Positions 20,454-37,791 of a stretch of DNA of 41,068 bases are shown here, piece by piece. How positions within the stretch are numbered: position 1 is the stretch's first letter; each line of letters opens with the position of its first letter. Below the pieces are notes generated by a model. The model worked only from the letters and a program-made list of their open reading frames with translations. It searched no databases and was not told the DNA's origin. Where the stretch lies: assembly GCA_031274765.1 (NCBI GenBank), contig JAISPR010000049.1:1-41068 (forward strand), in the 5' to 3' direction. This stretch comes from Nitrososphaerota archaeon. Lineage in GTDB: Archaea > Thermoproteota > Bathyarchaeia > Bathyarchaeales > Bathycorpusculaceae. The translations under genes and the position numbers were made by a program.

Positions 20454-21278
20454 TTAGGGTTTAGCCCAGTGCCTGGCAAGCGCGTCAAGGGCACTATCAA
20501 AGAGGTAATCATCGGGCACGACGTCAACTTTTATGGCGAGCTCGTTTAGGGCTTGAGCGGTGGTGGGTCCAATGGCAACAATGGTCACTTGTTTGGCAAG
20601 AATCTGTCGGAGCTGTTCTAGGGGTGCTTTTTCGGTGAGCATTTGGAATATGTTTTTAGCGCTCAACCCGCTCCCAAACAATATGGCACTTATGTATCCC
20701 GCGGATAGATCGTTGTAGAATTTTGTTTTAAGGGCCTCATCTATGGGCAAGCCTGACTCGTAAACATAGATTTCCTCCACATCTGCACCCATCTGTCGAA
20801 GGGTATTGGTCAGGATAGGGGAAGCATTGCTAGTACGAGGAATACGGAATTTTTTGCCTCGGATATCTGTGTTAGAAAGTGCTTCAAGTAAGCCGTCGCT
20901 GCTGTATTTTTGTGGAATCATATCCACATAAACACCTGTAGCCATTAGAGCTTCAGCGGTTTTAGGACCGACCGCTATAACAGAGGATTTTTTTAATCCT
21001 AAATAGAGCTGACTTGTCTGCTGTATATCTTTTGCAGCACTAAAGAGATGTTTGACTCCATTGGTACTCATTAAAACTACATAGTCCACGGTACCTTCTT
21101 GGAGTTCAAGTATGAATTTTTTGAGCGGCTCTTGGTTGCTTAGGGGTTTGATTTCGATAGCTGGGATGTAGTAGGGGATACCTCCCTTTGCTCTAATAAG
21201 TGCCCCTGCCTCGTTGGCTTGTTCTGCAGGGCGGGTTATAGCGATGACGCGTTCTCTTAGAGGGCTTTTTTGAACCAT
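20454..21278 (-). CDS. hemD: uroporphyrinogen-III synthase
   Basis: It cyclises hydroxymethylbilane with inversion of ring D to give uroporphyrinogen III in the cytoplasm. The 274 residues have the two-domain HemD layout, with the N-terminal VIAITRPAEQA (11-21), VVLMSTNGVKHLF around 67-79, and the late ILFGSGLSAK and VAIGPTTAQALNE segments. HemD is poorly conserved and has no absolute catalytic motif, so operon position is part of the evidence. The start overlaps the cobA end by 22 bases. It is the last gene of the left operon, with a T-tract directly after the stop. Confidence 0.9.
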   Translation of the reverse strand: MVQKSPLRERVIAITRPAEQANEAGALIRAKGGIPYYIPAIEIKPLSNQEPLKKFILELQEGTVDYVVLMSTNGVKHLFSAAKDIQQTSQLYLGLKKSSVIAVGPKTAEALMATGVYVDMIPQKYSSDGLLEALSNTDIRGKKFRIPRTSNASPILTNTLRQMGADVEEIYVYESGLPIDEALKTKFYNDLSAGYISAILFGSGLSAKNIFQMLTEKAPLEQLRQILAKQVTIVAIGPTTAQALNELAIKVDVVPDDYLFDSALDALARHWAKP

Positions 21279-22012
21279 GATAATTTCCTGCCTAATTTGG
21301 CGACGTCTCCAATAACGATAACAGAGGGCGGTTTGAGGTCGTGGTCTTGTGCTTCTTTTAGGATGGTTCCCAAAGTAGCAATGAGGGTGCGTTGTTGAGG
21401 AAGAGTTCCTGACTCGACCATAGCAACGGGTTTTTGTGGGTCTATACCGCCGGATAAGAGTTTTTCAACAATGCCTCTGAGCGATTCAACACCCATGAGG
21501 ATAACTACGGTGTCAACGGCGTGTGCGATTTTTATCCAGTTTATGGGTTTTTCTGCATCTCCTGCGCGGTGTCCGGTGATGATAGCAACTGATGCAGCAT
21601 AGTCGCGGTGTGTGAGGGGTATACCTGCGTAGGCTGGTGCGGCAACTGAGGAGCTGATTCCAGGTACATACTCAAATTCTATACCCTCGGCGTGTAATGC
21701 TTCGGCTTCTTCGCCGCCTCTGCCAAATATGAAGGGGTCGCCGCCTTTGAGCCGCACCACTTTGCCGCCCTGTTTTGCTTTTTCTATTATGAGTTCGGTG
21801 ATTTTGTCTTGGGGTACTTCGTGGAGTCCAGTGCGTTTACCCACGAAAATGCATTCTGCTTTGGCGGGTGCCATTGCGAGGATGTCTTTGTTTACACCCA
21901 GGCGGTCATAGATGATTACGTCCGCAGATTTTATTATCTCGACTGCTTTAACGGTGAGCAAATTAGGATCGCCAGGACCGGCGCCTACAAGAAACACTCT
22001 ACCATACACCAT
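21257..22012 (-). CDS. cobA: uroporphyrinogen-III C-methyltransferase (SUMT)
   Basis: It transfers two methyl groups from SAM to uroporphyrinogen III to make precorrin-2, the branch point to cobalamin and sirohaem. From ATG 22012 it has 251 residues: the SAM-binding GAGPGDP at 10-16, RLKGGDPFIFGRGGEE at about 87-102 and the PGISS motif. I choose 22012 rather than the upstream frame start at 22036 because GGAGA lies about seven bases before it and the family begins directly at this strand. It overlaps the hemC end by 14 bases and hemD by 22. Confidence 0.93.
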   Translation of the reverse strand: MVYGRVFLVGAGPGDPNLLTVKAVEIIKSADVIIYDRLGVNKDILAMAPAKAECIFVGKRTGLHEVPQDKITELIIEKAKQGGKVVRLKGGDPFIFGRGGEEAEALHAEGIEFEYVPGISSSVAAPAYAGIPLTHRDYAASVAIITGHRAGDAEKPINWIKIAHAVDTVVILMGVESLRGIVEKLLSGGIDPQKPVAMVESGTLPQQRTLIATLGTILKEAQDHDLKPPSVIVIGDVAKLGRKLSWFKKAL

Positions 22013-22934
22013 ACTTTTCTCTCCATTGTTTCTCAAATTCTTTGGCGCCCTGCTTGATTAGTTCTTCGCCTACAACGGTGCCCAGTTCTATGGCTTGGCT
22101 TAGGGTGCCCTTGGTTTGGGCGCTGATTTTTTGGTGGTCATTGAGTGAGAAGAGGCTGCCAAAAAGGGTGAGGCTGTCTCCTTGGGCTTTGGCGACTGCG
22201 CCGATGGGGACACGACAGCCGCCTTCGAGTTTGAGGACTAAACTGCGCTCAGCTGTGATTTCAGCTCGACTTTGGGCGTCTTCGATGGATTGTAGTAGGG
22301 TGATGATTTTGGTGTTGCCTTCTTTTGCAGTGAGAGCAATTGCGCCTTGTCCTGCGGCTGAGGGAAATTGTTCTTGGGGTAAACGTTGAGTGATTTTGTT
22401 TACGATGTCCATGCGTTCTAAACCGGCTTCGGCAAGAACTATACCGGCGAGTTCGCCGTTACAGACTTTGCTGATGCGGGTATCAATGTTGCCGCGGATG
22501 GGTTGGACCTCAAGATCGGGGCGGAGATATTTGATTTCGGCTAAGCGCCGCAAGCTGCCGGTGCCAATAGTGGCTTGGTGGGGTAGAGCAGTAAAGGGGA
22601 TATTGTTGTGGGAAATGAACACATCGTTTGGTGAGTCCCGTTTGGGGATTGCAGCTATTACTGTTCCAGTTTGTAGCTCTACAATGGGTACATCTTTTAG
22701 GCTATGTATAGCAAAGTCGATTTCGCCGCTGACAACCTGTTGGTCGATTTCCCGTTCAAATATGCCTTTGGCGTCGATGCTAAAGAGGGGTTTGCCGTGT
22801 TCTTTGTCGCCCATTGTATGGATGATTTTAAGTTCAAATTCTATGTGGGGGTTTTTTGTTTTTATCCAATTCAGGGTGCGATTTGTCTGTGCGAGTGCAA
22901 GTTTACTTCCTCGGGTGCCAACAATGAGTTTCAT
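21999..22934 (-). CDS. hemC: hydroxymethylbilane synthase (porphobilinogen deaminase)
   Basis: It polymerises four porphobilinogens into hydroxymethylbilane. The 311 residues include the start MKLIVGTRGSKLALAQT, the catalytic Asp81 in HSLKDVP, the basic GTGSLRR (125-131) and the dipyrromethane-cofactor Cys240 in LEGGCRVPIG. All key residues appear present. The start overlaps the hemL stop by ATGA, so translation is probably coupled. Confidence 0.96.
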   Translation of the reverse strand: MKLIVGTRGSKLALAQTNRTLNWIKTKNPHIEFELKIIHTMGDKEHGKPLFSIDAKGIFEREIDQQVVSGEIDFAIHSLKDVPIVELQTGTVIAAIPKRDSPNDVFISHNNIPFTALPHQATIGTGSLRRLAEIKYLRPDLEVQPIRGNIDTRISKVCNGELAGIVLAEAGLERMDIVNKITQRLPQEQFPSAAGQGAIALTAKEGNTKIITLLQSIEDAQSRAEITAERSLVLKLEGGCRVPIGAVAKAQGDSLTLFGSLFSLNDHQKISAQTKGTLSQAIELGTVVGEELIKQGAKEFEKQWREKYGVW

Positions 22935-24232
22935 GAGGGGTTCCTCGTTTTAGCTGCTACACAGAGAGCTTTGTCAAAAGCGTTTATGGTGAATTTGAGG
23001 TCGTCTTTTGTGTGTGCTGTTGAGACAAAACAGGTTTCGTATTGAGAGGGGGGGATAAACACCCCCTGTTTTAGCAGTTCGTGGAAGTAGGCAGAAAATA
23101 GTGCAGTGTCGCTTTGTTTGGCGTGGGTGTAATTAGTTATGTCTTGGGGGGTAAAAAATATTTGATACAGTGAGGCGATGCTGTGGACCTGTAGGGGTAA
23201 TTTGTATGTGGCTGCTTGGTCGGTGAGAGCTTTTTTTAGTTCAGAGGTATGCTTTTCAAGTGTGGGGTAGATTTGGTTTTGATTTTTAGTGAGATGATTA
23301 AGAATAGCTATGCCGGCGGTAACTGAAACTGGATTGCCGCTAAACGTCCCTGCCTGATACACGCTGCCTGCGGGGCTGATGTTTTGCATTATTTGTTTTT
23401 TTCCGCCAAACGCGGCCAAGGGAAAACCACCGCCCAAAACCTTACCCAGTGTTGCCAGGTCGGGTTTGACATCAAAATATTTCTGTGCACCCCCCAAAGA
23501 GAGGCGAAACCCAGTAATGATTTCATCAAATATCAAAACAGAATCATACTGATGGGTTATTTTCCGCAAGCTTGGCAGATAATTTTTTTGGGGCAAAATC
23601 AAACCCACATTAGCCACTACAGGTTCAACTATCACAGCCGCAATGTTTGCACCTTCAACTTTGAAAACATTCTCCAGAGCATCTATATCGTTGTAGGGCA
23701 ACACGATAGTATTTTGAGTGGTTTCTTGGGGAACACCCAACGAATTGGGAACCCCAAAGGTTGCAGCCCCTGAACCGGCTTTAACCAGCACACTATCATG
23801 ACTACCATGGAAGCAGCCATCAAATTTAATGATTTTTTTACGATTAGTGTAGCCTCTGGCGGCACGAATAGCATGCATAGTTGCCTCAGTTCCAGTGTTT
23901 ACCAACCGCATCATCTCCATACAAGGAGAAACATTACTAAGAGTCTCGGCGAATTGGACCTCGAGCTCTGTTGGGGTACCATAGAGAGTTCCTCTTGGAA
24001 GCTGAGTTTTTATGGCTGTGAGAATTTCTGGGTGAGCATGCCCCAAGAGAAGAGCCCCATAGGCCATACAGTAATCGGTGTATTTTTTTCCATCGGCATC
24101 ATAGAGTTTTGAACCCTGGGCACATTCTACAAAGAAAGGGTAGGGATCAAAGGCTCGAACAGGACTGTTTACGCCGCCGGGCAGAATTTTTTTGGCTCTC
24201 TCATAGAGCGCCATAGATTTGGATTCAGTCAA
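22931..24232 (-). CDS. hemL: glutamate-1-semialdehyde 2,1-aminomutase
   Basis: It converts glutamate-1-semialdehyde to 5-aminolevulinate using PLP. The 433 residues are of family length. The Schiff-base Lys264 lies in TLGKVLGGGFPLAA, and the motifs LPGGVNSPVRAF (17-28), NTGTEATMHAIRAAR (112-126) and FDEIITGFR (235-243) are present. Overlaps of ATGA with hemB before it and hemC after it show tight operon packing. It works with HemA, which sits at the head of the divergent operon. Confidence 0.97.
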   Translation of the reverse strand: MTESKSMALYERAKKILPGGVNSPVRAFDPYPFFVECAQGSKLYDADGKKYTDYCMAYGALLLGHAHPEILTAIKTQLPRGTLYGTPTELEVQFAETLSNVSPCMEMMRLVNTGTEATMHAIRAARGYTNRKKIIKFDGCFHGSHDSVLVKAGSGAATFGVPNSLGVPQETTQNTIVLPYNDIDALENVFKVEGANIAAVIVEPVVANVGLILPQKNYLPSLRKITHQYDSVLIFDEIITGFRLSLGGAQKYFDVKPDLATLGKVLGGGFPLAAFGGKKQIMQNISPAGSVYQAGTFSGNPVSVTAGIAILNHLTKNQNQIYPTLEKHTSELKKALTDQAATYKLPLQVHSIASLYQIFFTPQDITNYTHAKQSDTALFSAYFHELLKQGVFIPPSQYETCFVSTAHTKDDLKFTINAFDKALCVAAKTRNPS

Positions 24233-25209
24233 GGAAGAGTCATCCAGGTTTTTGCATTTTTTGCATGGTAAGTTATAATGAGATCAGCACCAGCGCGTTT
24301 AATACTTGTCAAGATTTCGCGGGTGAGGATTTTTTCATCTATCCAACCATTTTGTGCTGCCGCTTTAACCATGCTGTATTCACCGCTTACATTGTAGGCG
24401 ACAACTGGCACATTAAAGTTGGCTTTGGCCAAAGCGATAATATCAAGATATGCCAGGGCAGGTTTTATCATTATCATGTCTGCACCTTCTGCGATGTCGA
24501 GTTCAATTTCGCGGAGGGCTTCTTGTTGGCTACCAGGGCTCATTTGGTAACTTTGGCGGTTGCCAAATTTTGGTGTGGATTCTGCAGCGTCTCTAAAGGG
24601 GCCATAGAAGCCAGAAGCATATTTGGCGGCGTATGCAATAATTGAAATCTGGGAGTAGCCTTCTTGGTCAAGAGCTTCTCGGATTGCTGCAATTTGGCCA
24701 TCCATCATGGCCGAGGGCGCAACGATATCTATGCCGGCTTGAGCATAGCTAACAGCGGTTTTTGCGAGCAGAGCTATGGTAGGGTCGTTTTGGACTTCGT
24801 TATCTTTGATTATACCGCAGTGGCCATGTGTTGTATATTCACAAAGACAAACATCACCAATGACTACAAGTTCGTTGCCATAAGTTTTTTTGAGACTACA
24901 AATAGCTTGTTGGACAATACCATTTTTAGCATAGGCGTTTGTGGCTTCGGGGTCTTTTTTGGCGGGTATGCCAAAGAGAAGTACGGCTTTGATACCTTGA
25001 TCTATTGCGGCTCGGGCCTCTTTGGTGACCATATTGAGGGGCACTCTGTTGTAGCCAGGCATTGAATTGATGGGAAGAGGCTCTTTGAGATCTTCTTCAA
25101 CAAATATGGGGTAGATTAGATGAGCAGGGTTTAGGGTGATGGGGTTTAGCATATCGCGTAGAACCTGAGTTTGGCGCAGTCTACGCATGCGTACAGAGGG
25201 AAAACTCAT
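24229..25209 (-). CDS. hemB: porphobilinogen synthase (5-aminolevulinate dehydratase)
   Basis: It condenses two 5-aminolevulinates into porphobilinogen. The 326-residue protein keeps the zinc-binding Cys set C121, C123 and C131 in DVCLCEYTTHGHC, which marks the zinc-dependent class. The two active-site lysines are K196 in AYAAKYASGFYGPFR and K249 in MIMIKPA. It overlaps the precorrin-2 dehydrogenase stop by ATGA. Confidence 0.97.
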   Translation of the reverse strand: MSFPSVRMRRLRQTQVLRDMLNPITLNPAHLIYPIFVEEDLKEPLPINSMPGYNRVPLNMVTKEARAAIDQGIKAVLLFGIPAKKDPEATNAYAKNGIVQQAICSLKKTYGNELVVIGDVCLCEYTTHGHCGIIKDNEVQNDPTIALLAKTAVSYAQAGIDIVAPSAMMDGQIAAIREALDQEGYSQISIIAYAAKYASGFYGPFRDAAESTPKFGNRQSYQMSPGSQQEALREIELDIAEGADMIMIKPALAYLDIIALAKANFNVPVVAYNVSGEYSMVKAAAQNGWIDEKILTREILTSIKRAGADLIITYHAKNAKTWMTLP

Positions 25210-25859
25210 GTTGATTCACCTTTTTCTATGAGGTTTAGGGCTAATTTTTGAGCCTCTGCAAGATTACCTTCCAAGAGAGCTCGTTTGATGTTCACGTTAT
25301 CTAATAGGGCATATAATAGTTTACGCCTATGGGTTGGATCATCAATTTTATTTTTTAGGGTACAACGGATATTTGTTTGTAATTCAATGGCTAGCAAATC
25401 CTGGGGGGTGATTAATTTTTCGATACGTTCACGAAGCACATGTGCCATAGCGGGGCTTTTGCCGCTGGTTGATATTGCGATTTTAACGCTACCTATTTTT
25501 ACGATAGCGGGTAGAATAAAATCACTAAGTGCAGGGTTATCAACCGCATATACCAAACAGCCATACTTTAGGGCAGCATCTATGAGGTCATGGTTTAGTT
25601 TACTATTATTAGTGGCGGCTAAGAGAACATCGGGTTTGGGGTTGAGACTGTTAAAAAAAACGTGAGCGTCTTTAATTTCGGTTTTGAGCAGGTTAACCTT
25701 TTTGGTTTCTGCGAGTTTGAGAGCCTCAGTGGAGAAGTCTTGGCTTATCATCCAAATCACAGCGTCCAAATCCAGAAAGCTTTGAACTTTACGGGTTGCT
25801 TCTTTTCCACCACCGATTACCAGTATGGTTTTACCATCAAGTTTGAGGTCAAGGAGCAA
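25206..25859 (-). CDS. precorrin-2 dehydrogenase (CysG N-terminal / Met8-like)
   Basis: It oxidises precorrin-2 to sirohydrochlorin with NAD+, and in some relatives inserts metal. The 217-residue protein has the NAD-binding VIGGGKEA (14-21), an Asp at 107 (YAVDNP) matching the catalytic Asp of the CysG/Met8 family, and STSGKSPAMAH (130-140). It has no methyltransferase domain; that activity is in the separate cobA. It starts three bases after the stop of the amidotransferase-ATPase. Its product feeds the CbiX part of the right operon. Confidence 0.92.
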   Translation of the reverse strand: MLLDLKLDGKTILVIGGGKEATRKVQSFLDLDAVIWMISQDFSTEALKLAETKKVNLLKTEIKDAHVFFNSLNPKPDVLLAATNNSKLNHDLIDAALKYGCLVYAVDNPALSDFILPAIVKIGSVKIAISTSGKSPAMAHVLRERIEKLITPQDLLAIELQTNIRCTLKNKIDDPTHRRKLLYALLDNVNIKRALLEGNLAEAQKLALNLIEKGEST

Positions 25860-25862
25860 GGG

Positions 25863-27443
25863 TTAGTCGCCGCCTTGGGTTGCTCTTGGTGTAGGGGTTA
25901 GGAGATTTTTGAATTTAGCTGTGAGCGCATCATAGTCAACCTTTGTTATTTGGGGAGAAGAAGCAATTTTTGAGAGTAAAACAAGATTGATGTTTTTTTC
26001 GACAGTATCTAGGGCCTGTGCACCAAAGGCGTCATAGCGGATTTCAACTTCTGGGATCATGCCTCGCGCAGCCATATCTAAGCGGGGCACCATACCCAAT
26101 AACTCTACACCGACCTGCGCAAAGGTCTGATGTATCAGCTGTTTGGTTTGCTCGGTTATATAGCTGAGGCGTAGCTTGTTTAGAATCACACCGCACACTT
26201 TGACACCTAGAGTTTGTAATGTTTTAATGTAGTTAAGAGTGTTTATGAGGGCCCCTTCGAGGCCTTCATTATCACATCCCGCGACAATAACTGTTGAAGC
26301 CCCCAATGTAACTGCAACTTCAGCTGTGGACATAGGACGCGTATAGTTCTCGTTTAGTAACCCTGTAAAGGCACTCATGGCACCTTCAACTATGAGAAAA
26401 TTATAGTCACGGCTTGCCGCTGTGATCGCCTGTTTAGGGGGAGTCCAGCCGCTTTCGCCAATCTGTATGGAGGAATATTCGCATAGGGGTTCTTTGGTAA
26501 GATAGAGTGAAGAGACCGCATCACGTATATCGCCGCCCACTTTGATAACGCCTACGTTATAACCTTGCTTTTTGAGTGCTCCAGCGATACCGGTTACTAT
26601 AAAGGTTTTACCTGAGCTGCTACCCAACGCTGTGACCAGGACAAGTTTAGGTGGAAGAGGGGCTATGGGGGGTTGTTGGTAGATTCCTGTGGAAATGCCT
26701 ATTTCGCATTTGAGGTTTTTTATAAGGTTAGCGTTGACTTGTTGTATTTCTTTGAGTTCAAGGGGGCCAATATCTAGGGATTGTAAGATATTTTGCAGGA
26801 TGTTTGGGTTTTGATCTATGATGCCGTGGATTAAAATTCCGGCTATGTTGCCGGCTTTGTTGGTGACTCCAGAGAGGAGGTCTTGGGGGTTTTTTTTATA
26901 GTTCACTCGCTTAGCGTGGGTCATAAGGATGGCGCGGGAGTCGTTATGGAGCACTGTTTGTCCATATGTATGGCAGTGAAACCCTCTAACGGTTTGGCCA
27001 ATTTCTTGGGTGAGGAAGCTTTTATCGGTGATATTGGCACTTATGCGGTCTGTGCAGATTAATGGTTTAAATTCGACATCAAGTAGGCCTAGACCTTTAT
27101 TGGTTTGGGGTGATGTTGGGTGTTTGTTGTGGGTTTCTTTGGCGAGGGTTTGGAAGCCTGAGCCGATGCCAAGTACATATTTTCCGGATTCGGCCATTTT
27201 TGTGATTTCTTTGGCAACTTTGGGGTTGATGCTTGTTGATTCGATAAAGCTGCCGCCGGGGATGATTAGCATGTCTAAAACTTTTGAGGCGGGTTTGCCC
27301 TCAATTTGGGCGTCTGCGCAAACGAGGTTTGTTGGGAGGTTTCCAAAGTTTTCGAGGCAGGGTAGGGCGCCTGGGAGGTAAATTAGGCCTATTTTGTGGC
27401 GTAGAGCGCTTGTGTGTGGGGGGGTTATTTTTGTTTTTGGCAT
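25863..27443 (-). CDS. CobB/CobQ-like amidotransferase-ATPase with swapped domains
   Basis: From ATG 27443 (AGGA nine bases before it, TATA box about 65 upstream) it has 526 residues; a longer frame starts at 27542. Residues 15-215 resemble a CobB/CobQ-type glutamine amidotransferase domain, with the conserved His in GILIHGIID (H206). The nucleophile position reads GIGSGFQ (92-98) instead of GICGGFQ, so the Cys is missing. Residues 265-500 are a dethiobiotin-synthetase/CobB-like ATPase, with Walker A ALGSSSGKT (272-280) and IVEGAM (351-356). CbiA and CbiP have the opposite order, ATPase first. It heads the operon, so it probably acts on a tetrapyrrole or related acid, perhaps with free ammonia. 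Confidence 0.7.
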   Translation of the reverse strand: MPKTKITPPHTSALRHKIGLIYLPGALPCLENFGNLPTNLVCADAQIEGKPASKVLDMLIIPGGSFIESTSINPKVAKEITKMAESGKYVLGIGSGFQTLAKETHNKHPTSPQTNKGLGLLDVEFKPLICTDRISANITDKSFLTQEIGQTVRGFHCHTYGQTVLHNDSRAILMTHAKRVNYKKNPQDLLSGVTNKAGNIAGILIHGIIDQNPNILQNILQSLDIGPLELKEIQQVNANLIKNLKCEIGISTGIYQQPPIAPLPPKLVLVTALGSSSGKTFIVTGIAGALKKQGYNVGVIKVGGDIRDAVSSLYLTKEPLCEYSSIQIGESGWTPPKQAITAASRDYNFLIVEGAMSAFTGLLNENYTRPMSTAEVAVTLGASTVIVAGCDNEGLEGALINTLNYIKTLQTLGVKVCGVILNKLRLSYITEQTKQLIHQTFAQVGVELLGMVPRLDMAARGMIPEVEIRYDAFGAQALDTVEKNINLVLLSKIASSPQITKVDYDALTAKFKNLLTPTPRATQGGD

Positions 27444-27503
27444 GATTAATTTTCCTGCGGGTATGGTGGTTAGCTTTGGTTGTGATAAGTTTACTATGCG
27501 GGA

Positions 27504-27512
27504 TCTATATAA
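27504..27512 (-). promoter_or_regulatory. TATA box for the left tetrapyrrole operon
   Basis: GTTATATAG on the minus strand lies 61-69 bases upstream of ATG 27443. It would start transcription near 27480, leaving a short leader with an AGGA site. This argues against the longer frame starting at 27542. Confidence 0.5.
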
Positions 27513-27542
27513 CTGGATGGTGTAGGTTTGGGTTGTTTGCAT

Positions 27543-27982: not shown

Positions 27983-28876
27983 CTAGTAGTTTGATATGAG
28001 TAGTTCGCTAATGTTTCCGCGGTTTTCGGCTTGGCAGTTAATCATGCGTTTTGCGGTTATACGTTTGATATGATAGGGTTGGTATAGTTTGTCAAAAAAG
28101 TCATCGTGCATATTGTTGTTTTTGGGATCGGAGTTGCTGATAATCACTTTTGCACCTACTTGGTGAATTTTATTTACAAATTTGCTTAGTTCAATTTGTT
28201 TTTTATCATCAAAAGGGGTTTTAGTGTATGCAGTAAAGTTGGATGTTTGGGTAATTGGTCGGTAGGGGGGGTCGAGGTAGACAAAAGTGTTGCGGTCTAT
28301 AAATGTTGAGCAGTTTTTATAATCGCCACATCTTATGGTAACGTTTTGGAGTAGGGTGGATATATTTTTAATATTGGGTGTGTCACAAATGAGGGGTTTT
28401 TTATAGGATCCTAGGGGTACGTTAAATTGTCCCTTGTGGTTGACTCTAAAGAGACCGTTAAAGCAGGTTCGGTTTAAGAAAATAAACAATGTTGCTTTTT
28501 CAAGATTGATTTTTTCATCGTTATTTATTTTGAGATAATTAAAGCGTTCTCGTTTATTGTAATAATAAATTTTACGTTCTTCACGAGTCATATTCCAGAA
28601 CATATCTTGAAAAACGCCAAGTTCACCTATTAACTCATCGGCATAAAGCTTGATTTGAACATACGCATTCACAAGCTCTTTATTTATATCATTTATCAAT
28701 ACCTCATCTATTTTATACCTTGACAAAACATCAAAAAGCACCGCACCTCCACCCACAAACGGCTCACAGTACCTAACAATCCCTCTACCCAATTCCACAG
28801 GGTACTTTTTTTGAATATCAACAAGCAGCTGACTTTTGCCGCCTGCCCACTTTACAAAAGACTTTGCAACAACCAC
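27983..28876 (-). CDS. dam: DNA adenine N6-methyltransferase, D12 class (Dam-like)
   Basis: The 297-residue enzyme has the D12-class order: FVKWAGGKSQLL (7-18), the SAM-binding FVGGGAVLFD (40-49) and the catalytic DPPY (202-205). It transfers methyl from SAM to adenine in DNA; the recognition sequence cannot be told, though GATC is common in the class. It starts on GTG with GGTGGGA just upstream. No restriction gene is recognisable beside it, so it is an orphan or a restriction-modification remnant. It interrupts the space between two divergent tetrapyrrole operons, with repeats upstream, which suggests later insertion. Confidence 0.92.
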   Translation of the reverse strand: MVVAKSFVKWAGGKSQLLVDIQKKYPVELGRGIVRYCEPFVGGGAVLFDVLSRYKIDEVLINDINKELVNAYVQIKLYADELIGELGVFQDMFWNMTREERKIYYYNKRERFNYLKINNDEKINLEKATLFIFLNRTCFNGLFRVNHKGQFNVPLGSYKKPLICDTPNIKNISTLLQNVTIRCGDYKNCSTFIDRNTFVYLDPPYRPITQTSNFTAYTKTPFDDKKQIELSKFVNKIHQVGAKVIISNSDPKNNNMHDDFFDKLYQPYHIKRITAKRMINCQAENRGNISELLISNY

Positions 28877-29668: not shown

Positions 29669-30958
29669 ATGAAATTCTCAGCAAAGGTAGACCACATACT
29701 AAACATTCGCATAACACACAAAACAGCTCGCGTGATGCTAATGGAAAGCGTGGCCTTTAAAGAAAAAAATCAAGCCCTTGCAGACCTCAAAGCCATAGAA
29801 GGCATAGAAGAATGCCTACTTTTACAAACCTGCAACCGCATAGAAATCTACCTGACAGCTGAAGAACCAAAAAAAACCCTCACCACCGTCAAAGAATACC
29901 TCATCAACAGAGCAGGCGAACACACCAAAGAAATATCAAAAGCCATCGAAACCGCAACCGACAAAGACGCACTCAACCACTTACTCTGCGTAACCTCAGG
30001 CATGGAATCCATGGTTATCGGCGAAGACCAAATCCTAAACCAAGTCTGGAATGCATACCTAGAAGCCGATAACGCCAAAACACTTGGACCTATCCTAAAA
30101 CACCTCTTTAACCGCGCCATGACTATTGGCAGACATGTACGCAATGAAACAGGCATCAACAAAGGCGCAGTATCAATCGGATCAGCCGCAGTTGAATTGG
30201 CTGTCACCTTACTAAAAAATTTAGAAGATAAAAAAATTCTGGTCATGGGCGCAGGAGAAATCGGAACACTAGTCTCTAAAGCCCTTGCACGCCGCTGTTT
30301 GAGCCCCATATTTATTGCTAATCGCACCTATGATCGCGCCGTTAAACTTGCTTTGGATCTCAAAGGGGAAGCAGTACACTTTGACAGATTCAATGATGTT
30401 ATGGTAGATGCTGATGTTATCATCTGCTCCACCTCAGCACCACACTATTTACTGACCAAAGAAATCATTTCGCACCTTATGGTGCAACGTAAAAATCCCT
30501 CACCCATGTTAATTATAGACATATCTAACCCACGTAATGTTGAAAAAACAGTTAATGAAGTACCAGGAGCTAAACTCTACAACATTGATGACCTGCAGGG
30601 GATAGCTGACAAAAATAAGGCTCAACGGGAAAAAGCCATTGCACATGCACAAACTCTTCTAAATAATGAATTATCTACTCTCGAAGATGATATGAAAGGG
30701 CTCAGTGTACGGTTAATAATCTCTGAAATTCTCTCTGAAACCGAGGAGATCCGCAAACGAGAACTCTTAACAGCACTCAACAAAATGGGACACCTCGATG
30801 AGCATCAAAAACAGGTTTTAAATGATCTAACTTCAATTTTACTCAAGCAAACCTTTATTCCTATAATTGAAAACCTCAGATTAGCAGCCAAAAACGATGA
30901 CACAGAAGCCATCAAAATGGCGGTTAAATTGTTTGAGAAAACGGGGAAAACGCAGTGA
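29669..30958 (+). CDS. hemA: glutamyl-tRNA reductase
   Basis: It reduces glutamyl-tRNA to glutamate-1-semialdehyde with NADPH, the first step of tetrapyrrole synthesis. The 429 residues include the catalytic Cys55 in LLQTCNRIEIY, the signature GMESMVIGEDQI (111-122), the NADPH Rossmann motif VMGAGEIG (192-199) and the C-terminal dimerisation helices. It heads the right operon behind a TATA box. Its stop overlaps the next start as GTGA. Confidence 0.97.
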   Translation: MKFSAKVDHILNIRITHKTARVMLMESVAFKEKNQALADLKAIEGIEECLLLQTCNRIEIYLTAEEPKKTLTTVKEYLINRAGEHTKEISKAIETATDKDALNHLLCVTSGMESMVIGEDQILNQVWNAYLEADNAKTLGPILKHLFNRAMTIGRHVRNETGINKGAVSIGSAAVELAVTLLKNLEDKKILVMGAGEIGTLVSKALARRCLSPIFIANRTYDRAVKLALDLKGEAVHFDRFNDVMVDADVIICSTSAPHYLLTKEIISHLMVQRKNPSPMLIIDISNPRNVEKTVNEVPGAKLYNIDDLQGIADKNKAQREKAIAHAQTLLNNELSTLEDDMKGLSVRLIISEILSETEEIRKRELLTALNKMGHLDEHQKQVLNDLTSILLKQTFIPIIENLRLAAKNDDTEAIKMAVKLFEKTGKTQ

Positions 30959-32034
30959 CAAAAACATCATTAGATAATGTCGGTTTAATCCTAATTGGTC
31001 ATGGAAGTAAACTGCCCCATAACCAAGAAAATCTCGAAAAACTCGCAGATATTCTACGAACGCATTCAGCCTTTAAACTTGTAGAACTTGCATTTATGAT
31101 CCGAAACACACCCACTATCCCTGAAGCTATAGACACAATAACCCAAAAAGGAGCAAAAAAAATCGTTTTAGTACCTGTGTTTCTTGCAGCAGGCGTTCAC
31201 ACAACACAGGAAATACCCGAGTTAATAGAAATTAAAGATAAAGAAGCACAGCTTTCTATAAAAGGGATTCAACTATTTTATGGTGAACCCATAGGAGCAG
31301 ATGAGTGCATTGCCGTCATTCTCGAAGAAAAAGCACTAAGAGCTTTGGGGGATAACTGGGTTCATCGCCATGCCACCTTTAGGGGGACCCCGATAATGAC
31401 ATATCCACTAACGTCTACTGAGATCTATGAACAAAGCATGAAACTTATTCATCCTGAAATTCAAGACGTACTGGATAGGGTGCCCAAAAATCAGGTTCCT
31501 ATTATCGAGCGTGTGGTTCACACAACTGCTGATCCGGAATTTGCCAAGCTTGTAGTCATAAGTGATCAAGCCGTTGACTCAGGTGTTGCAGCCATCAAAG
31601 CAGGGGCCAAAATCATCACTGATACAAAGATGATTAAAGCAGGTATACATGCGGCAAGGGTACAACACTTTGGAGGGGAAATTTTGACCTACATCGATGA
31701 TCCCCGAGCCAGCAGAGCCGCATCTGTTGAATCTATCACGCGATCGGTAGCAGCAATACGATTAGCAATTGCTGAGGATGCAAACAATGCTATTTTTTTA
31801 ATCGGCAATGCACCCACAGCAGCTTTTGAGCTTGCTAAACAGATTAGGCAAAACAAAGTTAAACCTGCCTTGATAGTTGCAGTTCCAGTAGGGTATGTTG
31901 GAGCAGCCGAATCAAAAGAGACCATTACACAGCTTGGGGTTCCATACATAATTACAAAGGGAAGAAAAGGCAGCAGCACCATAGCCGTTGCAATTTTTAA
32001 TGCCCTATTATCAATGGCCGAAACTAAACTATAG
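30955..32034 (+). CDS. cbiX/cbiC: fusion of CbiX-type cobaltochelatase and CbiC methylmutase
   Basis: Residues 8-120 are a short CbiX-type chelatase, with GHGSKLPHN (H16) and a second metal-binding His in GVHTTQEIPE (H82). It would insert cobalt into sirohydrochlorin. Residues 148-359 are a precorrin-8X methylmutase, with the catalytic His189 in ERVVHTTADPEF, GNAPTAAFEL and PVGYVGAAESKE. It moves the C11 methyl to C12 to give cobyrinate. One chain thus holds an early and a late step of the anaerobic pathway. The GTG start overlaps the hemA stop by four bases. Both domains look intact. Confidence 0.92.
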   Translation: MTKTSLDNVGLILIGHGSKLPHNQENLEKLADILRTHSAFKLVELAFMIRNTPTIPEAIDTITQKGAKKIVLVPVFLAAGVHTTQEIPELIEIKDKEAQLSIKGIQLFYGEPIGADECIAVILEEKALRALGDNWVHRHATFRGTPIMTYPLTSTEIYEQSMKLIHPEIQDVLDRVPKNQVPIIERVVHTTADPEFAKLVVISDQAVDSGVAAIKAGAKIITDTKMIKAGIHAARVQHFGGEILTYIDDPRASRAASVESITRSVAAIRLAIAEDANNAIFLIGNAPTAAFELAKQIRQNKVKPALIVAVPVGYVGAAESKETITQLGVPYIITKGRKGSSTIAVAIFNALLSMAETKL

Positions 32035-32045
32035 GAAGAAAAATC

Positions 32046-33146
32046 ATGGTGCGGTTTTTAAAATATGGTATAACAACGGGGGCAACAGCGGCTGCAGCAG
32101 CTAAAGCCGCAACCATAACAGCCATTGGAGAACCAGTGGATTATGTGGTTATACCAACTCCGATTGGACTGCGTTTTGAGGTGCCAGTTAAATCTAGCCG
32201 TAAACTCAGCAAAGACACAGCAGAGGCATCTGTGATAAAGGATGCAGGACAAGATATTGATGCTACCGACAAAATGGAAATCACCGCTACAGTCAAGTTA
32301 ACAGATGATAACAAAATCAGTATCAAAAGCGGAGTTGGAATTGGCACAGTCACTAAAGCCGGCTTGCAAATAGCCATTGGCGAGGGCGCCATAAATCCGG
32401 TACCCAAAACCATGATAACCCAAGCCGTCAAAGAGGTCCTGCCCCCCCACAAAGGTGCAGAAATCCTAATAAGTGCCCCCGAAGGAGCCAATATCGCCAA
32501 AAAAACCATGAACCACAAACTTGGAATAAAAGGCGGCATATCCATTCTTGGAACAACAGGGGTCGTTAAACCCCTCTCTCTTGAAGCCTGCCGCCGCTCA
32601 CTGGTTCCCCAAATCGATGTTGCATTAGCCCACGGCTACAACCCAATACTTTATGTCCCAGGCAACATTGGTGAACGCATCGCTAAAGAAAAATTCAAAG
32701 TCCCCGAAGATGCAATTGTACAAACAGGCGACTTTGTTGGATACATGCTTGATAAAGCAGTCGAAAAAGGCGTCAAAGAAATCATCCTTCTGGGACATTC
32801 AGGCAAACTTGTCAAGTTAGCCGCAAACATCTTTAACACTCACCACAAAGTCGGTGACTCACGAAATGAAGTTATCGCAGCTTATGCAGGCGCCGTGGGT
32901 GCAGACCAAAAAGCCATCAATGAACTCTTAGATGCAAACACTTCTGATGAAGCCACAGATATTCTTCAAAAAATAGACCTAACAGAAGCAACCTACAACC
33001 GCATCGCTGAACGAGTGCATCAGCGAGTCAGCGACCGCGTAGACAACAAAATAAAAATAAGCGTCGTTATCGTCGCTATGGACAGCAGAGTTCTTGGCAT
33101 GGATACAAACGCACGGTGTAACAAACCTTGGCAAACCTTAGCATAG
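32046..33146 (+). CDS. cbiD: cobalt-precorrin-5B C1-methyltransferase
   Basis: It methylates C1 of the corrin ring after deacylation, using SAM. The 366 residues are of family length, with the N-terminal YGITTGATAAAAAKAA (7-22), VGIGTVTKAGLQI around 95-107 and VYTPGN-like LYVPGNIGE around 202-210. It starts 11 bases after the fusion gene and overlaps cbiE by 19 bases. It belongs to the anaerobic cobalt-early route. Confidence 0.96.
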   Translation: MVRFLKYGITTGATAAAAAKAATITAIGEPVDYVVIPTPIGLRFEVPVKSSRKLSKDTAEASVIKDAGQDIDATDKMEITATVKLTDDNKISIKSGVGIGTVTKAGLQIAIGEGAINPVPKTMITQAVKEVLPPHKGAEILISAPEGANIAKKTMNHKLGIKGGISILGTTGVVKPLSLEACRRSLVPQIDVALAHGYNPILYVPGNIGERIAKEKFKVPEDAIVQTGDFVGYMLDKAVEKGVKEIILLGHSGKLVKLAANIFNTHHKVGDSRNEVIAAYAGAVGADQKAINELLDANTSDEATDILQKIDLTEATYNRIAERVHQRVSDRVDNKIKISVVIVAMDSRVLGMDTNARCNKPWQTLA

Positions 33147-33811
33147 TCGGTATTGGACCAGGCTTAGCAGACTACGTTACACCCGTAGCAAGAAAAGCCG
33201 TAGAGAACGCAAACTTGGTTATTGGCGCACAGAGGAGCTTAGCACTTTTTCCAAACGAAATTAGCGGCGAACAAATTGTTTTAACCGCTAAAAATCTCCA
33301 AGACACCCTAAAGAAAGCCTCAGAAGCAGTTAAAGCAGATAAAAAAGTGGTTTTGCTCTCAACTGGCGACCCGGGCTTCTCAGGATTACTACATACTGTA
33401 CTAGAGAGTGGATTATTTAGCATCGATAGCATCAAAGTTATCCCCGGAGTTAGCTCAATTCAAGCATGTGCCGCCCGCTTAAATATCAGTTGGGATACCG
33501 CAAAACTATTCACATTTCATGGAAACCAAGTCTCTGATGAGCAAAAAAACAAACTGACTGACGCGTTTCAATGCGGCCACACCATCTTTTTGTTGCCCGA
33601 CCAGAAAGAATTTACACCAAAAAATATAGCCACTTTCTTACTCAAAACAGGGGCAAATCCAAAAACACAGGTTTATGTCTGTGAAAACATAACCCTTGAA
33701 AACGAAAAAATCACACAAAATACTCTAGAGGAGATTATGAGTCTGCGTTTTGGCTCGCTGTGCGTAATGGTTATCAAACAGGTAACAAATGCAGGTGAAT
33801 TGATATGGTAA
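33128..33811 (+). CDS. cbiE: cobalt-precorrin-7 C5-methyltransferase
   Basis: This SAM-dependent tetrapyrrole methylase (227 residues) has SIVGIGPG near the N-terminus, LLSTGDPGFSGLL in the middle and the PGVSS motif, as in the CbiE half of CobL. It starts on TTG 33128 inside the end of cbiD, because no better start fits before the first strand. It overlaps cbiT by seven bases. The C15 methyltransferase is a separate gene here (cbiT), as usual in the anaerobic pathway. Confidence 0.94.
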   Translation: MANLSIVGIGPGLADYVTPVARKAVENANLVIGAQRSLALFPNEISGEQIVLTAKNLQDTLKKASEAVKADKKVVLLSTGDPGFSGLLHTVLESGLFSIDSIKVIPGVSSIQACAARLNISWDTAKLFTFHGNQVSDEQKNKLTDAFQCGHTIFLLPDQKEFTPKNIATFLLKTGANPKTQVYVCENITLENEKITQNTLEEIMSLRFGSLCVMVIKQVTNAGELIW

Positions 33812-34410
33812 AGAATTGGACGTACAAAACACCAGGAATCCCCGATGAGGCCTTTAATCAAAGTGAAACTATTCCAGGACCAACAAAAGAGGAAATTCGA
33901 GTTATCACCATAGCTAAAGCACGTCTAAGTGAGGGTGATGTTGTGGTTGATGTAGGATGTGGTACGGGTGGTTTAACTGTTGAGGCGGCTTTGCAAATTG
34001 GGGGAAAGGGTCGGGTCTATGCTATTGATGAAGATATTGGAGCAGTAGATTTGACAAAAAGTAATGCTGCGAAATTTGGTGTAGAAAACTCTGTTATAGT
34101 TACAAAAGGAAAGGCCCCTGAGGCGCTTTTGGCTTTGCCTATTGCTGATGTGGTGTTTGTAGGGGGTGGGGGGGTTTCTCTGAGAGCCATTATTCAAACA
34201 GTGCACTACAAATTGAGAGCGGGCGGGAGAATTGTTATAAATGCCATATTGTTAGAAACTGCGACGGTGGCAATGGCTGAATTGAAGGCTTTGGGTTATC
34301 GAGACATTGATGTAGTAAATGTTTTGGTCGCGAAGGGAAAGCAAATAAATAGCGGGACCATGATGTTGGCAAGAAATCCGGTAACAATAGTTTCAGCAAC
34401 AAAACTTTAG
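33805..34410 (+). CDS. cbiT: cobalt-precorrin-6B C15-methyltransferase (decarboxylating)
   Basis: The 201-residue class I methyltransferase has SAM motif I VVDVGCGTGGLTVEAA (about 47-62), then YAIDED and the FVGGGG segment typical of CbiT. It methylates C15 and removes the C12 acetate carboxyl. The N-terminal TPGIPDEAF is characteristic. ATG 33805 overlaps the cbiE end. Confidence 0.95.
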   Translation: MVKNWTYKTPGIPDEAFNQSETIPGPTKEEIRVITIAKARLSEGDVVVDVGCGTGGLTVEAALQIGGKGRVYAIDEDIGAVDLTKSNAAKFGVENSVIVTKGKAPEALLALPIADVVFVGGGGVSLRAIIQTVHYKLRAGGRIVINAILLETATVAMAELKALGYRDIDVVNVLVAKGKQINSGTMMLARNPVTIVSATKL

Positions 34411-34422
34411 AGGTATATTTGC

Positions 34423-35217
34423 TTGGTTGGCGTATTCATCGGCATTGGGGTTGGCCCAGGTGACCCCGAGTTGCTTACATTCAAGGTTGCAAAAGCCCTC
34501 AAGGCCGTAGATGTCATCTGCGTGCCTAAGAGTCATATAAACAAGCCCAGTATGGCATTGGGTATGATTAGAGAGGTTTTGGCGGAACGTGAAAAACCTG
34601 TTGAGATTATAGAGCTTGTTTTTCCCATGACCAAAGATGAACTCAATAATCGTAAACTCTGGATGGAAAGTGCAGCCATAGTTGCTGAGAAGGTCAAAAA
34701 AGGTGATGTTGCCTTCATTACCCTTGGTGATCCTATGCTGTATAGCACTTTTCGCTATCTCTATGAATGTGTCAAAGAAACTTATCCCGAGATTGAGCTT
34801 GAGATCATTCCAGGTGTAACTTCAGTCACTGCTGTTGCGGCTTCGTCCAAGTTGCCGTTGGCAGAAAAAGATGAAGTTGTCACCATCATCCCCTCAGACC
34901 TTGATCCGACTCATTTAGAAGATGTTGCCAGACACGCAGATAATCTTGTGTTTATGAAATGTGCGTTTCATATCAAAGAACTCATACCCATTTTACTTAA
35001 AGCGGGCTTCACTGAGAACTCTACGGTTGCGCTTGTTAAGCGATGTACGCTCTTAGAAGAGAAAGTGCTTGTGGGTAAGCTTTGTGAAGTTGAGGATTGG
35101 GACATAACAGAGGACTATTTTTCAGTCGCTATTGTTAAAAAAAGTCAGGTTCCTATTCATTGGAAACAAAACGGGAATGGATGCGATAAATCGGGGTGTG
35201 GTTGTAGTCATGAATAA
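34423..35217 (+). CDS. cbiL: cobalt-precorrin-2 C20-methyltransferase with Cys-rich tail
   Basis: It adds the C20 methyl to cobalt-factor II or cobalt-precorrin-2. The 264 residues include GVGPGDPELLT (9-19), VAFITLGDPMLYSTF around 104-118 and a PGVTS motif. It starts on TTG 34423, with AGAGGT about 14 bases upstream. The last ~12 residues, CDKSGCGCSHE, are rich in Cys and His and lie beyond the normal methylase end, suggesting a bound metal or cluster. The end overlaps cbiF by eight bases. Confidence 0.94.
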   Translation: MVGVFIGIGVGPGDPELLTFKVAKALKAVDVICVPKSHINKPSMALGMIREVLAEREKPVEIIELVFPMTKDELNNRKLWMESAAIVAEKVKKGDVAFITLGDPMLYSTFRYLYECVKETYPEIELEIIPGVTSVTAVAASSKLPLAEKDEVVTIIPSDLDPTHLEDVARHADNLVFMKCAFHIKELIPILLKAGFTENSTVALVKRCTLLEEKVLVGKLCEVEDWDITEDYFSVAIVKKSQVPIHWKQNGNGCDKSGCGCSHE

Positions 35218-35971
35218 AGTTGTGTTTATCGGTGCTGGTTCGGGCGATCCAGAGCTTATAACTATAAAAGGTAAAAAATGGCTTGAGCAAGCAGATGTTG
35301 TTCTCTACACGGGTAGTTTGCTAAATCCGGAATATCTCAAATATTGCAAAGCAGATGTGGAACTCTATGATAGTGCTAAAATGGGGTTACCTGAAATGCT
35401 CAGGGTTATGATTGACGGTGTTAGAGCAGATAAACGGGTAGTTCGGCTCCATGATGGTGATCCAAGTTTCTATGGTGCAATTCAAGAAGTCATGTCTGCA
35501 TTGGATAGAGAAGGCATTGAATACTTCCGTATTCCAGGTATTAGTTGTCTATTGGGGGGTGCAGCAGCGCTAAATAAAGAGTTGACGCTTCCAGATATTA
35601 GTCAAACAGTTATAATCACTCGTCCTCAAGGACGAACTCCTGTGCCTCAAGCAGAGAGCATACAAAAGCTTGCGGTACATCAGGCCACTATGGTTATTTT
35701 TTTGGGTACCCCCCATATCGCTTGTGTAGTTGAGGATTTACAAAAAGGTGGATACCCCAGTGATACGCCCTGTCAGGTGGTCTACAAGGCGACTTGGCCA
35801 GAACAAAAAATCGTTAAGGGTACTCTTAGTGATATTGTTGAAAAAGTTAGGGCCCAGGGTATAACCGAGACGGCGCTTATTTTTGTGGGCAAAGTTTTAG
35901 ATCCTCAGGCATATGATTTTTCTAAACTCTACGACCCCAAATTCACCACAGGGTTTCGTAAGGGCGAGTAG
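35210..35971 (+). CDS. cbiF: cobalt-precorrin-4 C11-methyltransferase
   Basis: The 253-residue methylase begins MNKVVFIGAGSGDPELIT at ATG 35210; a longer frame from 35132 only reads through the cbiL end. It has RLHDGDPSFYGAIQE and PGISC motifs and the CbiF-typical ITRPQGRTPVP. It methylates C11. It overlaps cbiL by eight bases, and its stop is directly followed by the cbiG ATG. Confidence 0.95.
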   Translation: MNKVVFIGAGSGDPELITIKGKKWLEQADVVLYTGSLLNPEYLKYCKADVELYDSAKMGLPEMLRVMIDGVRADKRVVRLHDGDPSFYGAIQEVMSALDREGIEYFRIPGISCLLGGAAALNKELTLPDISQTVIITRPQGRTPVPQAESIQKLAVHQATMVIFLGTPHIACVVEDLQKGGYPSDTPCQVVYKATWPEQKIVKGTLSDIVEKVRAQGITETALIFVGKVLDPQAYDFSKLYDPKFTTGFRKGE

Positions 35972-37057
35972 ATGACTAAAGAGGGTATAACAATTGTTGC
36001 TATCACCCATCGCGGCGTTAACACAGCATTAAAAATTCAAAAAGTGCTTGATAATTGCAGTTTAGTTGCCGTTGTTTATGTTCCAAAAAAATATGGTTGT
36101 CCAGGCGTCACAGTTATAGACACGTCCATAGCAAATTTTATAAAAGAAACATATAGCAAATCAAGTGCTATAGTCGCAGTTATGGCCACAGGCATAATTA
36201 TCCGTGCGGTTGCACCTCTTTTGGAGAGTAAATTAACCGATCCCGCAGTCATAGGTGTAGACGCTACAGGTAAATTTGTCATAAGTCTTCTCTCGGGACA
36301 TTTAGGCGGAGCAAATAATTTGACACAAACCATTGCAACAGGCATCGGTGCCACGCCAGTCATAACAACTGCCTCAGATACATTAGGTAAATTAAGCGCA
36401 GATGAACTTGCCAGAATCCTACATATGACAATTCAAAACCCTGATAGTCTGGTTGCTGTAAACTCGGCGATAGTGAACAATGAACGCATCGTTGCGATAT
36501 TGGTAGGTGATGTCAAAGTTCCGTTAGAGACTCTTAGCGGGTTTGAGGTCAAGCAGGTTCAAAATAGCGCAAAAATTCAAGAGATTGCAAAAACCTATGA
36601 CGCGGGAATCATAATCACTGACAACCCATACGTAACCATCAAATTGAATAAACCTCATACGGTACTAAAAACTAAACGCATCATAGTTGGATTGGGTGCA
36701 CGTAGAGATACACCGATGGAAAATATTGTTGCGGCAGTAAAGATAGCCCTTGAACGGGTGCAGGTGCCACTTGGAAGAGTGAGTTCTTTTGCAACGGTGG
36801 ATATAAAACGTACTTCCCAACCCATGATAGATGCTGTGAAAGGGCTGGGTGCACCGCTTGAGTTTTTAAGTGTCGATGTACTTCGTTTAGTGACAAATGC
36901 AGATCTGTCGCCAGATTCAGCGATGGTTCAGCAAAAAATTGGTGTTGGAGGAGTATGCGAACGAGCCGCTTTACAGGTAGCAGGGAACAAATCAAAGTTG
37001 ATTCTCAAGAAGATCAAACTAAACGGGACAACAGTAGCAGTAGCCGAGGCAGAGTGA
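35972..37057 (+). CDS. cbiG: cobalt-precorrin-5A hydrolase
   Basis: It opens the delta-lactone of cobalt-precorrin-5A and releases acetaldehyde. The 361 residues cover the N-terminal CbiG domain (MATGIIIRAVAP, SGHLGGANNLT), a middle domain and the C-terminal domain with GLGARRDTP and GAPLEFLSVDVL. It starts immediately after the cbiF stop and ends with a GTGA overlap to cbiH. Confidence 0.95.
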   Translation: MTKEGITIVAITHRGVNTALKIQKVLDNCSLVAVVYVPKKYGCPGVTVIDTSIANFIKETYSKSSAIVAVMATGIIIRAVAPLLESKLTDPAVIGVDATGKFVISLLSGHLGGANNLTQTIATGIGATPVITTASDTLGKLSADELARILHMTIQNPDSLVAVNSAIVNNERIVAILVGDVKVPLETLSGFEVKQVQNSAKIQEIAKTYDAGIIITDNPYVTIKLNKPHTVLKTKRIIVGLGARRDTPMENIVAAVKIALERVQVPLGRVSSFATVDIKRTSQPMIDAVKGLGAPLEFLSVDVLRLVTNADLSPDSAMVQQKIGVGGVCERAALQVAGNKSKLILKKIKLNGTTVAVAEAE

Positions 37058-37791
37058 GCGTAATTGGTATTGGACCGGGCAGTGCTGAGCATCTAACGCC
37101 TAAGGCCAGAACAGAAATTGAAACAGCTGATGTTGTTGTGGGGTATGGGACCTACATTAAACTTATCAAACACATGATTAGAGGAGATAGCGAAGTTGTT
37201 TCGGGTACCATGGGCAGAGAGGTTGAGCGGGCCCAAATAGCCATTAATAGAGCCAAATTAGGTAAGCACGTTGTAATGGTGTCTAGTGGTGATCCTGGGG
37301 TGTATGGTATGGCGGGTGTTGTGCTTGAAGTAGCGGCTAAAGATCCAATTCCAGTACCTGTCGAAGTTGTACCGGGCGTAACGGCAGCTACTGTTGCATC
37401 GGCTATTCTTGGAGCTCCATTGATTAGCGACTTTGCAGTCATCAGTCTAAGCGACCTGTTGACTCCTTGGGAAAAAATTGAGTGTAGACTTGAGGCAGTC
37501 TCACAAGCAGATATGTCCATTGTTCTCTATAATCCGCAAAGTCAAGAACGCATTGAACCGCTGACAAGAGCCTATGAGATTATGCTCAAATACATAAAGC
37601 CTGAAACTCCGGTGGGTATTGTGCATCAGGCAGGCCGTGAAGGACAGTCCAGTAGCATCACTACACTCAAAAATATGCTTAACTGTAATATTGACATGGT
37701 TACAACCATAGTTATTGGCAATTCTGCCACCAGAATTATAAACGGAAAAATGGTTACCGAGAGAGGATACGACCTTCAAGGTTTAATTTGA
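37054..37791 (+). CDS. cbiH: cobalt-precorrin-3B C17-methyltransferase
   Basis: It methylates C17 with ring contraction. From GTG 37054 the product has 245 residues, the usual length, beginning VSVIGIGPGSAEHLTPKA. It has VSSGDPGVYGMAG and PGVTA motifs. I prefer GTG over the longer ATG frame at 36955 because it forms a GTGA overlap with the cbiG stop, has CGAGGC just upstream, and the extra N-terminal residues are a shadow of cbiG. It is the last gene of the right operon; repeat A follows about 30 bases later. Confidence 0.94.
   Translation: MSVIGIGPGSAEHLTPKARTEIETADVVVGYGTYIKLIKHMIRGDSEVVSGTMGREVERAQIAINRAKLGKHVVMVSSGDPGVYGMAGVVLEVAAKDPIPVPVEVVPGVTAATVASAILGAPLISDFAVISLSDLLTPWEKIECRLEAVSQADMSIVLYNPQSQERIEPLTRAYEIMLKYIKPETPVGIVHQAGREGQSSSITTLKNMLNCNIDMVTTIVIGNSATRIINGKMVTERGYDLQGLI

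Follow-up and report, generated by a model that had tools for sequence, protein, structure and literature searches.

At the head of an operon of tetrapyrrole genes, the genome segment analysed here (41,068 nucleotides of a Bathycorpusculaceae archaeon, contig JAISPR010000049.1; hereafter the window) encodes a CobB/CobQ-like protein with its two halves in reversed order and with a glycine where the catalytic cysteine is expected. Is this a known enzyme, and what reaction could it carry out in this state? The protein is probably the Bathyarchaeial equivalent of CbiA, a corrin amide synthetase that has secondarily become dependent on ammonia; we infer its substrate, its use of ammonia and its target carboxylates.

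Domain order and family membership

The features of the gene discussed below are these:

25863..27443, minus strand: PRK06278-type amidase gene, predicted GATase-first corrin amide synthetase (NF004921; Pfam GATase_3 and AAA_26/CbiA)
26778..27395, minus strand: class-I GATase-like half, nucleophile lost (Pfam GATase_3; Foldseek matches to GatD, HisH and GMP synthetase)
27162..27164, minus strand: Gly94 replacing the catalytic Cys, GIGSG versus GI/VCSG (Cys in 77 of 80 distinct relatives)
27108..27134, minus strand: eroded loop THNKHPTSP, reading TD[IV]GRLSxxP in relatives
26826..26828, minus strand: His206, the retained GATase histidine (ILIHGI), invariant across a 27-member alignment
25899..26651, minus strand: AAA_26 or dethiobiotin-synthetase-like ATPase (synthetase) half, conserved sites all intact (Pfam, site count, Foldseek)
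26604..26624, minus strand: P-loop GSSSGKT of the ATPase half

The protein has 525 residues when read from the Met at 27443, the start picked in the first-pass annotation. A longer ORF (25863-27542, minus strand) gives 559 residues from an ATG at 27542, and family homology begins near 27395. In the longer ORF, Pfam places GATase_3 at residues 80-245 (6e-15) and, at residues 302-489, both AAA_26 (1.5e-12) and CbiA (1e-10). The C-terminal part of the CbiP/CobQ profile aligns with the N-terminal half of the protein and the N-terminal part of the CobB/CfbB profile with its C-terminal half; thus, the domain order is truly reversed. The AlphaFold2 (AF2) model (pLDDT 89.9, pTM 0.91) was matched by Foldseek to class-I GATases (GatD, HisH and GMP synthetase) over one half and to dethiobiotin synthetases over the other, so that the first half has the GATase fold. 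The first-pass annotation had described a GATase half followed by an ATPase half, opposite to CbiA, CbiP and CfbB, and a nucleophile motif reading GIGSG beside a retained IHG histidine. The Pfam and profile coordinates agree with the former, and the sequence confirms the latter.

Against NF004921 (PRK06278) the amidase scored 457 bits (cut-off 354) over profile positions 2-476 of 482, that is, over its full length. Since both score and architecture fit, it was filed in this family, whose curated cut-off does not demand the catalytic Cys; a check for the nucleophile found it absent (GIGSG), and the protein was accordingly not placed among active glutamine amidotransferases. The GATase-first order is the norm of NF004921, and the earlier suggestion that the swapped order is a novelty pointing to a new role was therefore rejected. 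Tests for the canonical enzymes failed: for CbiA/CobB, PRK01077 gave 79 bits (cut-off 254) and TIGR00379 60 bits (cut-off 261), each over one half only; for CbiP/CobQ, scores were 77 bits against a cut-off of 273 and 72 bits against 310; and for CfbB (NF033195), 54 bits against a cut-off of 560, the window's genome (G000) having a partial match only.

The family occurs in Bathyarchaeia, Methanomethylicota and class I methanogens, and farther GATase-first relatives are present in Vulcanisaeta and other Thermoproteota. Several of these divergent relatives (L024-L029 and L118-L120 in the Vulcanisaeta set, with L023, L116 and L117) fall under the NF004921 cut-off, and they keep the Cys and lack the DxGR loop. 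Their role may differ, because some of their genomes also match canonical CobB. One Bathyarchaeial genome (G413) carries two PRK06278 genes, L161 and L162, 60% identical and both with the Cys; the second copy lies outside the tetrapyrrole cluster and adjoins a restriction-modification-like locus. A literature search found no paper on PRK06278 and no biochemistry for any family member.

Loss of the catalytic cysteine

Among the 80 distinct family members collected, the three that lack the Cys are the window protein, L058 (genome G255) and L059 (G320), all of them from genomes whose genus was matched to Ca. Bathycorpusculum. It had been foreseen that both the order and the missing Cys might prove standard for one family; this holds for the order but fails for the missing Cys. 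The absence of the Cys is a genuine variant within a known family, recurrent and specific to its lineage; it arose late, in a few Bathycorpusculum species, and does not characterise the family as a whole. Sequencing error, a frameshift pair and chance were rejected as explanations, because the two other genomes share the Cys-to-Gly replacement together with changes in the DxGR loop, and the DNA of the loop is in frame.

The four nearest relatives, 72-75% identical to the window protein, all have the Cys. They come from B. termitum, Coa324_bin13, B. acetigenerans and B. hydrogenotrophicum, termite-associated MAGs by name, and in the tree the window protein branches beside them. L058 and L059 pair as sisters (98% support) in a group apart from the window protein, so the tree implies at least two losses of the Cys. 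L055, the sister of this pair, still has the Cys although its DxGR loop is gone, a hint that erosion can start in the loop.

Positions kept in at least 95% of members were taken as conserved sites, 50 in the GATase half and 35 in the ATPase half. The window protein breaks 5 of the 50 (the Cys and, in the loop, D, G, R and S) and none of the 35, and other members break on average 0.8 and 0.4 sites, respectively; L059 has extra changes that are scattered. When the window gene was compared with L032, divergence at third codon positions was about five times that at second positions in both halves, a sign of purifying selection. This pattern and the unbroken ATPase sites indicate that the gene is maintained and its synthetase intact. 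Support for relaxed evolution throughout the GATase half is weak: by the ratio used for this purpose, L058 ranked first, L059 fourth and the window protein (L001) tenth among 36 branches, but the Cys-bearing L037 had an equally high ratio, and some Cys-bearing branches were equally uneven. Faster evolution of the GATase half is clear only in L058 and L059, the excess in the window protein being confined to the motif. The predicted order of the loop did not differ between the window protein and a Cys-bearing relative (block pLDDT 72 and 75).

Gene context and exchange with CbiA

The amidase gene is followed by genes for the early steps of the pathway, and a divergent operon carries the corrin-ring genes:

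25206..25859, minus strand: precorrin-2 dehydrogenase / CysG N-terminal domain, next in the operon (profile match; order kept in relatives)
24229..25209, minus strand: hemB (sequence; syntenic in Bathyarchaeia)
22931..24232, minus strand: hemL (sequence; synteny)
21999..22934, minus strand: hemC (sequence; synteny)
21257..22036, minus strand: uroporphyrinogen-III methyltransferase, sumT/cobA (sequence; synteny)
20454..21278, minus strand: hemD
29669..30958, plus strand: hemA, first gene of the divergent corrin-ring operon (sequence; synteny)
30955..32034, plus strand: fused CbiX-CbiC (chelatase and precorrin-8 methylmutase)
32046..37791, plus strand: the corrin-ring genes cbiD, cbiE, cbiT, cbiL, cbiF, cbiG and cbiH, with cbiF and cbiH being our own assignments from TP_methylase matches and gene order

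Three bases separate the amidase gene from the precorrin-2 dehydrogenase ORF, which begins at 25859. The two divergent clusters, hemA-cbiXC-cbiD-E-T-L-F-G-H on one side and amidase-precorrin-2 dehydrogenase-hemB-hemL-hemC-sumT-hemD on the other, are conserved in Bathyarchaeia, and this conserved operon supports the role in the tetrapyrrole pathway proposed at first pass. In genome G330 the amidase operon runs on to a CobD-like aminotransferase gene and ends with CbiB. Neither cbiA nor cbiP is present in the corrin-ring cluster at 32046..37791. A gene for a D12-class adenine DNA methyltransferase (window 27983-28876) lies in the 2.2 kb that separate hemA from the amidase gene; it looks like an insertion because hemA and the amidase gene nearly adjoin in most relatives. 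Elsewhere in the window (3252-4310) lies a gene for a YhcG/DUF1016-type PDDEXK nuclease.

The amidase is the sole CobB/CobQ-type protein found in the window's genome and in the nine Bathyarchaeia genomes searched with TIGR00379; a further match to the ATPase half is carried by some members of another family in Bathyarchaeales. Copy numbers were compared in methanogens. Of the 22 methanogen genomes with the family, G444 has no canonical CobB and each of the other 21 has exactly one; in one of the 22 the family gene is split. The CfbB profile, run on 13 of the 22, found one CfbB over the cut-off in 12 and none in G444. CfbB and PRK06278 are thus different enzymes, since both coexist in methanogens. 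Of the seven methanogens without the family, six have two canonical CobB proteins, CfbB and another one distinct from it; in the remaining genome no CbiP appeared. A second canonical CobB is therefore found in 0/22 family-bearing and 6/7 family-less methanogens (Fisher 1.5e-5, a value that ignores kinship, and the six genomes with CbiA could all belong to a single clade). Because the family and a second canonical CobB never occur together in these genomes, PRK06278 most likely replaces CbiA; that the two substitute for each other is the simplest reading, and it fits the NCBIfam name. The assignment of CfbB to F430 synthesis came after the 2011 gene inventory of Methanothermobacter. That inventory gives a single gene, MTH1460, as CbiA (PMC3087415); this gene would be the canonical, CfbB-type copy.

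No CbiP/CobQ scored over the cut-off in any of 151 Bathyarchaeales genomes, though corrin-ring genes and CbiB are present. CbiB was found in all Bathyarchaeia searched, usually in two copies. The window's genome has two paralogues (C10:8137-8988 and C27:13796-14650), and of the Bathyarchaeial copies one adjoins a CobD-like aminotransferase and the other a B12-binding radical SAM-like gene. For Bathy-6 a nearly complete B12 pathway has been described, with two genes not identified (PMC11697101). Since Bathyarchaeales lack a recognisable CbiP, the substrate range of the amidase may exceed that of CbiA. Either this enzyme makes all six amides, or another enzyme performs the remaining four amidations, or the corrinoid is less amidated. 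A bolder proposal, which we regard as rather doubtful in its entirety, starts from the corrin-ring genes and CbiB of Bathyarchaeales and from the absence there of a recognisable CbiP and, in most of the genomes searched, of canonical CbiA. It holds that a single domain-swapped enzyme forms all six corrin amides in this order, and that a few Bathycorpusculum species use free ammonia after two independent Cys losses, in a microbial parallel to the origin of CPS1.

Proposed function and comparison with known enzymes

In the proposed mechanism, the C-terminal, dethiobiotin-synthetase-like half would activate corrin carboxylates (the a and c acetates of cobyrinate) with ATP, by homology through phosphorylation of the ring carboxylate. 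The N-terminal GATase half of nearly all relatives would deliver ammonia from glutamine hydrolysed at the Cys. In the window species this half probably serves only for structure or channelling now, and the synthetase would take free ammonia. Free ammonia, already put forward in the first-pass annotation, is the likely donor because class-I glutamine hydrolysis is not expected without the Cys; the replacement of Cys by Gly beside intact synthetase sites makes its use probable. Bathycorpusculum includes two termite-gut lineages described as amino-acid fermenters (PMC10684969), and hindgut ammonia in soil-feeding termites reaches up to 130 mM (PMC7886697). We hypothesise that the termite-gut habitat favoured the Cys losses, the habitat of the window's genome itself being taken from its neighbours in the tree.

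The most serious alternative, although an unlikely one, concerns the substrate: sirohydrochlorin, sirohaem or a Ni-tetrapyrrole might be amidated instead of a corrin, in a DsrN- or CfbB-like role. The gene adjoins that for precorrin-2 dehydrogenase, the related DsrN and CfbB act on sirohaem or Ni-tetrapyrrole substrates (PMC10504309), and many AhbD-like radical SAM proteins occur in Bathyarchaeia. However, methanogens with the family already possess CfbB, haem proteins are reported to be absent from two Methanothermobacter species (PMC3087415), presence of the family tracks loss of canonical CbiA, and the operon of G330 extends into CobD-like and CbiB genes. With the AhbD haem-synthase profile (TIGR04545), each Bathyarchaeial genome gave 8-22 matches, none over the cut-off; these include proteins of about 700 residues (G000:C117:9537-11620 and others) and an adjacent pair in several termite-clade genomes.

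Somewhat less likely again is the same enzyme fed with ammonia in trans by a separate glutaminase subunit. Class-I synthetases often partner with a separate GATase, and here the GATase fold and its histidine are kept; yet the cluster contains no extra GATase gene, and the genome contains no other CobQ-type GATase except a short PurQ-like match. That the loss of the Cys begins a decay toward a pseudogene, for instance in a species that salvages corrinoids, appears improbable. The window branch is somewhat long (0.183) and L059 has its scattered changes, but the frame is open, no ATPase site is broken, the excess of third-position divergence holds in both halves, the surrounding corrin-ring cluster is intact, and two lineages show this same change. 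Finally, the first-pass annotation had offered a non-catalytic tetrapyrrole sensor or regulator, for which the missing nucleophile speaks and nothing else; with 35/35 conserved synthetase sites intact and no other CbiA candidate found in the genome, there is no sign of such a role and we consider it highly improbable. Taken as a whole, the earlier interpretation is partly supported, and an ammonia-dependent CbiA equivalent is the reading that we favour.

The analysis offers functional evidence for the archaeal family PRK06278: in Bathyarchaeia, and in class I methanogens, where CfbB is the one canonical CobB, it would be the corrin a,c-diamide synthase that had been missing. It points to a cofactor amidase that has repeatedly lost glutamine use in nature, with a possible tie to ammonia-rich termite guts. 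It also exposes a gap in the 151 Bathyarchaeales genomes without a CbiP over the cut-off, namely the enzyme for the other four amidations of the side chains.

The window amidase shares with PRK06278 members the GATase-first order, the P-loop and the GGDIRD motif, but they retain the GI/VCSG Cys and the DxGR loop and it has lost both. CbiA/CobB has the same two domain types and the same predicted reaction; unlike the amidase, it has the ATPase half first, the GATase half second and the Cys present. CbiP/CobQ likewise has these domain types in the reverse order. CfbB (Ni-sirohydrochlorin a,c-diamide synthase) and DsrN (sirohaem amidase) are related tetrapyrrole amidases of the canonical CobB type, unlike the amidase. 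The precedent for how the window protein may work is human CPS1, in which the GATase domain is retained, the catalytic Cys is lost (Ser294 is at its position) and free, external ammonia is used (PMC4655335). The synthetase and substrate of CPS1 are unrelated to those of the amidase, and the likeness is one of mechanism, with no claim of common membership.
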